Positions 228-2,144 of a stretch of DNA of 35,615 nucleotides are shown here, piece after piece; positions within the stretch are counted from its first letter, which is position 1, and each line of letters begins with the position of its first letter. The translations under genes and the position numbers were made by a program. Source of the stretch: a virus. Below the pieces are notes generated by a model that did no database searches, was not told where the DNA came from, and saw nothing but the letters and a program-made list of their open reading frames with translations. The stretch is taken from the IMG/VR virus record IMGVR_UViG_3300043433_000032, positions 1 to 35,615 of that record; one strand, 5' to 3'.

Positions 228-896
228 TTATGTACTTGGCGATGCAAACTGGTCTAGCATTAATAAATCAGGTTTAAATACGTCCTTAACGTCTGTATTA
301 GGCTCAAAAGTGCTAAATTCTTTCTTTTGCGGCTTCTTTATTATAATTCCGTTACTTATATCAACTAGCGCCTTTTCAATCAATTTAAGCCCCATTTCTT
401 GCAGTTCGTGTTCCCAAAGTAACTTTGCCGCCTTTTTTGGGTCAAGTGAGTATAACTTAGGGTCAATAAAACAAATGTCCTGATAAGCAATATCACCTCT
501 ATCAATTCCACTATTTAACCAAAATACCGTGCCGCCAGTTATTGCATCACGCATACGAACAGCCCATTCAATAGAAGAGCGACCACGATGGCGAGGCAAT
601 AAGCTAGGGTGGTAACCAATCCATCCAATATTCGGCTTATATCTTGTGCGTACGCCAATATAATCAAACGAGTGAGCCGTTATACCAATATCCACATTAT
701 CGGGCATTGTTTTGGCGTTTAAAGTACCCGCAGGAATAACTGGAATATTAAACCTGTGCGCCATTTTTGTAACATACTTATCGTCAAGTGGCGAACAAAC
801 TCCAACAACTTCAACAAAATCTAAACTATTGCATAAACTAAATACTTGCTCACCAAAGTATTTTTGTCCACTTATAAAAACTTTTAATTTCTTCAT
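228..896 (-). CDS. formyltransferase-fold protein of the mom-position cassette
   Basis: A 222-residue protein with the methionyl-tRNA formyltransferase/GART fold signature HPSLLPRHRG (about residues 96-105) followed by TGGT (120-123) and IDRGD (131-135). The family's catalytic His (H96) and Asp (D132) are present at the usual spacing of 36, but the catalytic Asn of the NxH motif is Gly (G94). The protein is shorter than housekeeping Fmt (about 310 residues) and lacks its C-terminal tRNA-binding domain, so it is unlikely to formylate initiator tRNA. Its ATG (894-896) overlaps the stop of the GNAT gene (893-895) by two bases, so the two are translationally coupled. Formyl or another one-carbon/acyl transfer to a nucleotide or DNA base is plausible by context, but this is inference. 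Confidence 0.75.
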   Translation of the reverse strand: MKKLKVFISGQKYFGEQVFSLCNSLDFVEVVGVCSPLDDKYVTKMAHRFNIPVIPAGTLNAKTMPDNVDIGITAHSFDYIGVRTRYKPNIGWIGYHPSLLPRHRGRSSIEWAVRMRDAITGGTVFWLNSGIDRGDIAYQDICFIDPKLYSLDPKKAAKLLWEHELQEMGLKLIEKALVDISNGIIIKKPQKKEFSTFEPNTDVKDVFKPDLLMLDQFASPST

Positions 897-1468
897 TCTC
901 CTAAATATTTAAAACTTTGAACGGCTCTAAAATGCCCTCCATAACCGCAACCAGAAATTCCGCTTTTTTTATTTCCAGTCTTCATGATACTTGCGTTACT
1001 TCTTGTTTTGTTTGAACCGAAAAGCATTGCGCCAGTTTGAACCCATTTTTTTGTATTTCTTAAATAGCCCGCAAGTTGTGGGTGGCTTGTGTGAAAAAAA
1101 GTATGATATTTTCTTGCACATCTGCCGTTACCCTCCAAATGGTATTGCATAACTTGATTTAAAAAAGCTGTTCCAACTCCAGCACCTTGCCACTCAGGCA
1201 TAACCACCAAGCGTGTTGCCCTATATGCTGTAGCAGTAAACAGCGGACAAACTGCAACGTGTGCCACAAGCTCGCCGTTTACAACACCAACAAAATACTC
1301 AGCTGCTGGTGGATGAGGCAAATCTAAATAGTAATGCTCTTTAAAAAACTTCCAGAAAGTTCCGTTGACCTTCCAAATATCAAGTTTGATTTCTGGTCTG
1401 TTCCCGAGTTCAATTTTTTTTTTAATACTTTGGTATTTACGTCGTATACCCAGTCTGGTTGTAACCAT
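893..1468 (-). CDS. GNAT acyltransferase, candidate Mom-like DNA-modification enzyme (-1 frame continuation of the ABC ATPase)
   Basis: A GNAT-fold protein. The acyl-CoA loop motif Q/RxxGxG is visible as WQGAGVG (residues 93-99 of this ORF), preceded by the beta-strand RLVVMP. The frame overlaps the upstream ABC ATPase by 145 bases. The region after the shared A10 run (1414-1423) reads like native protein (ELGNRPEIKLDIW), whereas the stretch before it (MVTTRLGIRRKYQ) looks like out-of-frame translation of the ATPase. I therefore think it is mainly made as an ATPase-GNAT fusion of about 375 residues through a -1 shift. A family with this same domain pair fused in one chain is known (COG2401, ABC ATPase fused to an acetyltransferase domain). 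In phage Mu the mom gene sits in this same place. Independent start at 1468 cannot be excluded. Confidence 0.7.
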   Translation of the reverse strand: MVTTRLGIRRKYQSIKKKIELGNRPEIKLDIWKVNGTFWKFFKEHYYLDLPHPPAAEYFVGVVNGELVAHVAVCPLFTATAYRATRLVVMPEWQGAGVGTAFLNQVMQYHLEGNGRCARKYHTFFHTSHPQLAGYLRNTKKWVQTGAMLFGSNKTRSNASIMKTGNKKSGISGCGYGGHFRAVQSFKYLGE

Positions 1469-2019
1469 TCGATAATGTCATAGTGGCAAGATAGAAGCAC
1501 CACCTTTTTGCCTTTATTTTTTCGCCAATTCTTTGCAAATGCTAACGCCCCAATTTTGGCAATTTGTCTATCAACAACACTTGTAAACTCATCAACAACA
1601 ACCTCGTTTGGAGCTTCAGTTACTAATCGAGCTAAACCCGCCCTAAATTGTTGACCATTTGATAAGGCGTGAAAAGGTCTTAACCAGCTAGGCACATCGC
1701 CAAGACCTACAGCGGCTAAAGCTCCTGTTGCCGAATCAAAAGCACCGTTTGGTAAAATGCAGTCAATAATAGGCTTGTCATGTTCCCAATTAGCGTAAAG
1801 GTTGCATATTTTATTCTCGCCAAAAAACTGTTTTCCAATTGAAGTCTTACCGGAACCACTCGCCCCAACAATTAAACCAATGCCCCAATCCAAGTCGTCA
1901 ATTTCAATATTAAACTCATTTACAAATTGTGAGCCGTCTTCCGCATTGAACAACGATTTTACTCTTTGAGCTCTATAGCTTTCAAAGTTTTTTGTTTTAT
2001 TTTCAACTTTTATGATCAT
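1324..2019 (-). CDS. ABC-type ATPase of the mom-position cassette
   Basis: A 231-residue soluble ATPase in the zero frame. Walker A is GASGSGKT (residues 52-59), the ABC signature LSNGQQ (119-124), Walker B VVVDEF with catalytic Glu (140-145) and an H-loop SCHYD (H179). There are no membrane segments and no permease nearby, so it is not a transporter. The C-terminal tail after residue 202 (KKK, encoded by A10) is low-complexity and probably the product of reading past a frameshift site. A -1 shift there joins the GNAT domain. The start ATG (2019) overlaps the stop of the small upstream gene (ATGA). It may power DNA or nucleotide handling by the acyltransferase, by inference from the COG2401 domain pairing. 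Confidence 0.75.
   Translation of the reverse strand: MIIKVENKTKNFESYRAQRVKSLFNAEDGSQFVNEFNIEIDDLDWGIGLIVGASGSGKTSIGKQFFGENKICNLYANWEHDKPIIDCILPNGAFDSATGALAAVGLGDVPSWLRPFHALSNGQQFRAGLARLVTEAPNEVVVDEFTSVVDRQIAKIGALAFAKNWRKNKGKKVVLLSCHYDIIEWLQPDWVYDVNTKVLKKKLNSGTDQKSNLIFGRSTELSGSFLKSITI
1414..1423 (-). other. A10 slippery run, candidate -1 frameshift or transcriptional slippage site
   Basis: On the - strand the codons are TTA AAA AAA AAA TTG, so A AAA AAA heptamers are present in the correct phase. A -1 slip changes KKK-LNSGT to KKK-IELGNRPE, entering the GNAT frame. An imperfect hairpin (CCAGAAA/TTTCTGG arms) lies about 17 nt downstream. Polymerase slippage on ten A's is equally possible, as is a fixed indel. 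Confidence 0.55.
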
Positions 2020-2144
2020 GTTGTTACTACTTTAAGTTTTAAACCTTTAGCCTTTAGCTCATCGAACATTTTAATTTGTTCCTCTTCTGTTTCACAAATA
2101 ACAATAACGCCGTATTGCTGTTTGTAGTTAAATTGTTTTGCCAT
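2016..2144 (-). CDS. 42-residue conserved-looking protein at the head of the mom-position cassette
   Basis: ATG at 2142-2144, TGA at 2016-2018, sharing ATGA with the ATPase start, which supports true coupled translation. The sequence has a hydrophobic strand YGVIVIC, an acidic helix ETEEEQIKMFDELKAKG and a final strand LKLKVV. This beta-alpha-beta pattern resembles small phage proteins that I have a general memory of seeing in similar settings, but I cannot name the family. It may be a subunit or regulator of the ATPase-GNAT enzyme. Confidence 0.65.
   Translation of the reverse strand: MAKQFNYKQQYGVIVICETEEEQIKMFDELKAKGLKLKVVTT

Follow-up and report, generated by a model that had tools for sequence, protein, structure and literature searches.

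Here we report that a phage gene family combining an ABC-type ATPase with a GNAT domain very probably draws two proteins, the ATPase and an ATPase-GNAT fusion, from one gene by programmed frameshifting, as judged from the comparison of related sequences. What stays conserved appears to be the two-product output, with -1 slippage serving in some lineages and +1 slippage in others. Ribosomes staying in frame at a run of ten adenines (A10) would make a 231-aa ABC-type ATPase with a conserved tail of about 30 residues, and the fraction slipping -1 on A_AAA_AAA would make a 375-aa ATPase-GNAT fusion; in phages with an in-frame fusion, a +1 slip at a prfB-like CTT-NGG-C would reach the same tail, ending at the same stop. 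The ATPase would then act as a dimer or oligomer in which some subunits carry the acyltransferase and others lack it (compare tau and gamma of DnaX).

Methods

The window, i.e. the whole stretch of DNA analysed, is the 35,615-base virus record IMGVR_UViG_3300043433_000032, in which the locus lies on the minus strand. Relatives were drawn from viral and genome contigs; 304 loci, including that of the window, were classed, and 223 non-redundant loci were kept. These comprised 118 in-frame fused loci, 98 with the GNAT at -1 (here called split), four with the GNAT in the third frame, one broken locus, and two without a GNAT. Single counts omit L148, which lacks an A run and appears to reflect an indel, as well as loci in which the HYYL pattern is missing, the sequence contains N, or the ends are short. 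A tree was made without the junction, using a quick method, from 121 of 217 rows after clustering. Later scans for distant loci classed 56 distinct loci of 73. Bacterial genomes were drawn evenly from the phyla of G001 and G002 (Bacteroidota and Pseudomonadota, respectively), with the centre genomes counted in.

The ATPase/GNAT locus of the window

The features of the locus and its immediate neighbours are given below, all on the minus strand, with the source of each in brackets.

228 to 896, minus strand: formyltransferase-like gene directly downstream, part of a conserved cassette (Pfam Formyl_trans_N, E 1e-17)
893 to 1468, minus strand: GNAT open reading frame as listed, 191 aa (ORF listing)
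893 to 1422, minus strand: GNAT part of the predicted fusion, reached by a -1 slip (Pfam, phrog_11143)
1324 to 1326, minus strand: conserved stop codon TAG that ends the predicted short product and spans the codons for Leu and Asp in the GNAT motif HYYLD (relatives)
1324 to 1413, minus strand: dual-coded stretch, tail in the zero frame and GNAT N-terminus in the -1 frame (alternate-frame conservation)
1324 to 2019, minus strand: ABC-type ATPase, predicted zero-frame short product, 231 aa (ORF listing, Pfam, phrog_11143)
1414 to 1423, minus strand: A10, the candidate slip site, with two zero-frame A_AAA_AAA heptamers (sequence)
1466 to 1468, minus strand: ATG of the GNAT open reading frame, derived from codons for a conserved Glu-Trp pair in the ATPase rather than being a conserved start (relatives)
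2016 to 2144, minus strand: 42-aa open reading frame of the conserved cassette, its stop sharing ATGA with the start of the ATPase (relatives)

The sequence-only reading of this DNA had described the ATPase frame as TTA AAA AAA AAA TTG at the A10, an overlap of 145 bases between the ATPase and GNAT frames, and a -1 slip on the A10 that would continue into the GNAT. All three hold, with the run at 1414-1423, the shared bases at 1324-1468, and the -1 reading extending to 375 aa. The A10 is the sole A/T homopolymer of nine or more bases within the window. The product of the -1 slip would read ...NTKVLKKK-IELGNRPEIKLDIW..., with its junction peptide around LKKKIELGNRPEIK, and would run on through LKKKIELGNRPEIKLDIW, whereas the short product carries a 29-residue tail beyond the slip site, ending FLKSITI.

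Both halves of the locus have recognizable domains. Pfam matches were obtained to ABC_tran for the ATPase (E 6e-6) and to Acetyltransf_1 for the GNAT (E 7e-7, above the cut-off), and a single phage protein family, phrog_11143 (357 positions), spans both, matching the ATPase at positions 3-194 (E 1e-86) and the GNAT at positions 192-351 (E 2e-53). A close relative in which the two halves are in frame, L017, matches positions 2-352 of the same family. Among 70 short products, the columns of the Walker A motif (G52-K58), the LSNGQ-like signature (L119 S120 N121), the DE pair (D143 E144), and the H-loop (H179) are invariant or nearly so. The GNAT has the acetyl-CoA motif Q-G-x-G-x-G, RLVVMPEWQGAGVG, of which Q78, G79, G81, and G83 are invariant in 15 sequences, and is a predicted acyltransferase with this motif intact. 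A structural model of the L017 fusion (mean pLDDT 87.9) resembles ABC ATPases with Z of about 15 and an rmsd of about 3.5 over about 180 residues. The match lists of Foldseek and VIA-align were taken up by the ATPase domain, and a defence profile search gave weak ATPase matches only.

The A-run slip site in split relatives

Among the 98 non-redundant relatives with the GNAT in the -1 frame, 97 have an A_AAA_AAN heptamer in the zero frame at the junction, formed by A runs of 6, 7, 9, 10, or 11, and this recurrence excludes the A10 of the window as a product of chance. In 95 of the 97 the zero-frame stop lies 29-34 codons past the run, the other two being broken earlier in the ATPase. Where the run is A6 or A7, all 16 sites are in the single codon phase that yields A_AAA_AAN. 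Named hosts of the split genes are Flavobacterium, Tenacibaculum, Paenimyroides, Chryseobacterium, and Flavipsychrobacter. In the even draw of bacterial genomes, the gene occurs in 3 of 395 on the Bacteroidota side and 2 of 398 on the Pseudomonadota side, which makes bacterial genomes poor material for replicating the pattern.

In-frame fusions across the A10, which the sequence-only reading had suggested looking for among homologs, do exist (118 of the 223 non-redundant loci). They include L017, which has A11 and reads LKKKIEIGKRPEIK across the junction. Since homopolymers are error-prone, a close relative is in frame with A11, and in three further loci (L104, L216, and L289) the run length suits neither frame, one could suppose that the true run in the window is A11 and that the gene is one continuous fusion misread in sequencing or assembly. 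We regard such an error as highly improbable, because the 98 split loci share the same -1 offset over different run lengths, because the split form also occurs in isolate genomes and in a complete Chryseobacterium chromosome (L197), with A9-A11 present in many independent assemblies, and because the zero-frame tail is under selection (see below). The run lengths of L216, L289, and L104 are 8, 6, and 11, respectively, placing the GNAT in the third frame; perhaps they are errors, decayed genes, or the outcome of another mechanism.

The same deviant loci, together with L017, could be taken as signs of phase variation, in which the run length drifts in the DNA and toggles the fusion between genomes. 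Such drift would be expected to populate all three frames, yet 97 loci with a run are at -1, one (L017) is in frame, and four are in the third frame. The A6 and A7 sites are, moreover, short, and the out-of-frame stop described below is kept even where there is no A run at all, so that phase variation merits very little credence. For the family as a whole, sequencing error and phase variation were both rejected on account of this recurrence in one frame.

A separately initiated GNAT would need its own start codon. In the window an ATG is available at 1468, and the GNAT frame is open from there, which would allow two overlapping genes with no slippage. However, a GNAT-frame ATG, GTG, or TTG upstream of the run is absent in 85 of the 97 split relatives, the window being among the exceptions, and 60 of the 97 have no such codon before the conserved GNAT motif HYYL; the ATG at 1468 itself arises from the Glu-Trp codons of the ATPase. 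Separate initiation is accordingly very unlikely in the window, and for the family an independent GNAT start was rejected since start codons are missing. The suspicion that the GNAT frame ahead of the A10 is merely out-of-frame sequence is thus well founded in most relatives, and a conserved independent GNAT start, which would have told against slippage, did not emerge from the 97 split relatives. Slippage, yielding a free ATPase and a fusion as had been proposed for the -1 direction, is the reading that the relatives support.

The short-product tail and its conserved stop

The tail read in the zero frame had been thought unconvincing, and in this respect the sequence-only reading was wrong. 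Offset by one base from the GNAT codons, the stop that closes the short product spans the Leu codon of HYYL and the codon that follows (TTA-GAT, CTG-AAA, etc.), and is TAG, TGA, or TAA by lineage among the loci listed. It is kept in 97 of 97 split relatives and in 115 of 115 in-frame fused relatives examined, compared with mean expectations from codon usage of 0.43 and 0.38, respectively, although it is important to note that related genes are not independent draws. Identity of the tail in the alternate frame is likewise higher than synonymous codon choice would give: 0.571 in 95 split genes against a null of 0.369 (highest of 200 simulations, 0.381), and 0.355 in 112 fused genes against a null of 0.236 (highest, 0.242). 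The stop is close to fixed in this frame, as are Leu at -3 and the two Ile residues at 0 and +2. On this alternate-frame conservation, the tail is under selection in the zero frame and dual-coded. Models of the tail are of low confidence (mean pLDDT 40-53 per block) and so give no structural clue to its role.

A candidate +1 signal in in-frame relatives

Fused relatives have a signal of another kind shortly before the GNAT, CTT-NGG-C, which in many is preceded by a Shine-Dalgarno-like AGGGGG or GGAGG; the sequence-only reading had not remarked on it. Synonymous constraint on the codons there is very strong. Among 114 fused genes, CTT stands at the slip position in 95, CCC in 7, CAT in 5, CGA in 3, GCC in 3, and GTT in 1; where it encodes Leu, it is CTT in 95 of 96, a codon agreement of 98% versus 19% expected. 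The codon that follows is NGG in 99 of the 114, and the base after this A-site codon is C in every one (114/114). A Shine-Dalgarno-like element 3 nt upstream is found in 50 of the 114, compared with 9% in a codon null, and its occurrence differs by host: 8/8 in Pseudomonadota, 3/3 in Verrucomicrobiota, 2/2 in Planctomycetota, 1/8 in Bacillota, 0/1 in Acidobacteriota, 0/25 in Bacteroidota, and 36/67 at viral loci without a named host. The absence from Bacteroidota is in keeping with the rare use of Shine-Dalgarno sequences in Bacteroidia (PMC8710568).

The arrangement resembles the +1 site of E. coli prfB, AGGGGGUAUCUU UGA C (PMC8710568, PMC12421855), in its Shine-Dalgarno-like AGGGGG or GGAGG where present, the 3-nt spacing, the CTT, and the C after the A-site codon. 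It differs from prfB in that a sense codon (CGG, TGG, or AGG) takes the place of UGA in the A site, that a +1 slip would give a shorter protein rather than the full-length one, and that the Bacteroidota members lack the Shine-Dalgarno-like element. A +1 slip at CTT-NGG-C appears to lead into the same tail and stop as in-frame reading of the split genes. Given the conserved stop of the tail, the A-run signal in split genes, and CTT-NGG-C in fused ones, the same two products would be reached by -1 or by +1. We infer from these sequences that both proteins are made, and likewise their ratio.

Distant phages

Twelve of 18 named phage records are fused, and 11 of these 12 keep the out-of-frame stop, the exception being Aeromonas phage PX29. 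The sites of Leptospira phage LE3 (AGG AGG TTG CTT TGG C) and Pasteurella phage Pmp13 (CGG AGG TCG CTT TGG C) fit the +1 motif, and the split arrangement at -1 occurs in five Firmicutes phages, whose short product ends in III. In Tenacibaculum phage pT24 (L308) the stop is kept, but another stop interrupts the fusion frame within the GNAT part. None of the 18 records annotates this gene as a joined or frameshifted CDS.

In the later scans, 48 of the 56 distinct distant loci retain the out-of-frame stop, a sample that is not fully independent since the queries were themselves found earlier. The stop is missing at the Leu codon in 8 of the 56, seemingly one subgroup by sequence. L359, L361, L362, L366, and L369-L372 are fused with no stop at the Leu codon, and several of them have AGG GGG NNN GAA AGG C in place of CTT, which is perhaps a further slip variant.

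The -1 split is also found without an A run in L305, L312, L313, L321, and L331 (from phages of Streptococcus and Lactococcus, plus one viral contig), where GTTTTTC and CCCCCAC are conserved nearby. Inspection of T and C runs in the Streptococcus and Lactococcus phages singled out no slip site; the runs noted were T_TTT_TTT in L332 and L333, and T9 in L335.

Changes on the tree, RNA structure, and mode of slippage

The tree, which has long branches among the distant phages, requires five or more switches between the split and the fused state. They fall in two groups that include Bacteroidota records, in the Firmicutes phages, and at two tips (L017 and L181) that may be run-length variants.

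In the A7 lineages (11 aligned sequences), a 9-bp hairpin begins 5 nt past the run, with 99% of cells paired, three pairs altered on both sides, and a covariation of 0.430 versus 0.287 when shuffled (0 of 500 shuffles as high). This covarying hairpin argues for ribosomal slippage in these lineages. No conserved RNA structure was detected downstream of the A run in 15 sequences of the window clade, so that slippage there may be ribosomal or transcriptional; at long A runs, downstream structure may be dispensable.

It is possible, if doubtful, that the window clade obtains the same two products through RNA polymerase adding an extra A on the A10, after which ordinary translation would give the fusion. 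The runs of its split genes, mostly A9-A11, are of lengths at which polymerases slip, as in dnaX (PMC3711429), and the lack of a conserved hairpin would suit this mode. Against it, three lines of evidence point to ribosomes elsewhere in the family, namely the uniform A_AAA_AAN phase of all 16 A6 and A7 sites, the covarying hairpin at 5 nt in the A7 lineages, and the way the fused class tracks Shine-Dalgarno use by the host. For the window we infer ribosomal, not transcriptional, slippage, and ribosomal slippage is the favoured mode for the family, with the transcriptional mode the lesser possibility in the window clade.

Neighbouring genes and known systems

The gene usually sits in a conserved cassette. 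Where the flank is long enough, a formyltransferase follows it in 165 of 174 loci and relatives of the 42-aa open reading frame precede it in 189 of 208. In phage annotations the downstream gene is labelled phosphoribosylglycinamide formyltransferase; a Porphyromonas phage has, at the place of the 42-aa frame, a small CDS annotated 'acr candidate protein', and ParB-like proteins lie upstream in some named phages.

An ABC ATPase with a GNAT has been described as a predicted DNA base-modification system in a survey of jumbo phages that names Tenacibaculum phage pT24, a relative in the present set (PMC7824862). The domain pair is the same, and the available part of that survey mentions neither a frameshift nor two products. 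The present proteins probably acylate a nucleobase of phage DNA, the role predicted there for ABC-GNAT proteins. A comparison of the GNAT with Mom of phage Mu (a member of phrog_1384) by hhalign gave a probability of 0.2%, with no sequence relation seen, a result compatible with distant kinship.

Slippage on A runs that gives an ATPase with and without its C-terminal part from one gene would be shared with dnaX, where it takes the form of a programmed -1 frameshift or of transcriptional slippage. In E. coli dnaX the slip yields the short form, whereas in split ABC-GNAT genes it would yield the long one; the enzyme family is also a different one, and the tail of the ABC-GNAT short form is dual-coded and conserved across phyla. 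The dnaX signal is A_AAA_AAG or a run of 9-10 A (PMC3711429). The phage tail assembly chaperone gene gives a short and an extended protein by frameshifting (PMC10885494) and is in this respect alike, but it is another gene with another role; what would be distinctive of ABC-GNAT is the change in slip direction with a shared conserved stop.

Conclusions

Programmed frameshifting is well known, and to our knowledge few programmed frameshifts conserve the ratio of two products. In the literature searched, which took in few subscription papers, frameshifting of an ABC-GNAT gene is nowhere reported and, as far as we know and could find, a family that keeps its output while switching slip direction is unusual, although phage tail chaperones also vary in their shifts. 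We consider it likely that this family, found in phages of many phyla, must always make both forms of the ATPase, and that the direction of the slip has been repeatedly reversed (between -1 on A or T runs and +1 at the prfB-like CTT-NGG-C) with the tail and stop kept. The machine would be a mixed ATPase oligomer, with the tail functional in the short subunit.

Annotation of the family would change accordingly, since current records of split genes omit the GNAT or set it apart. The loci also provide naturally occurring pairs of +1 and -1 signals that track Shine-Dalgarno use by the host and may be useful for the study of frameshifting in Bacteroidota. Because the output seems to persist across very distant phages despite the change of slip direction, the requirement for two products can itself be tested. 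The family further points to an ATPase of mixed subunits within a predicted DNA modification system.
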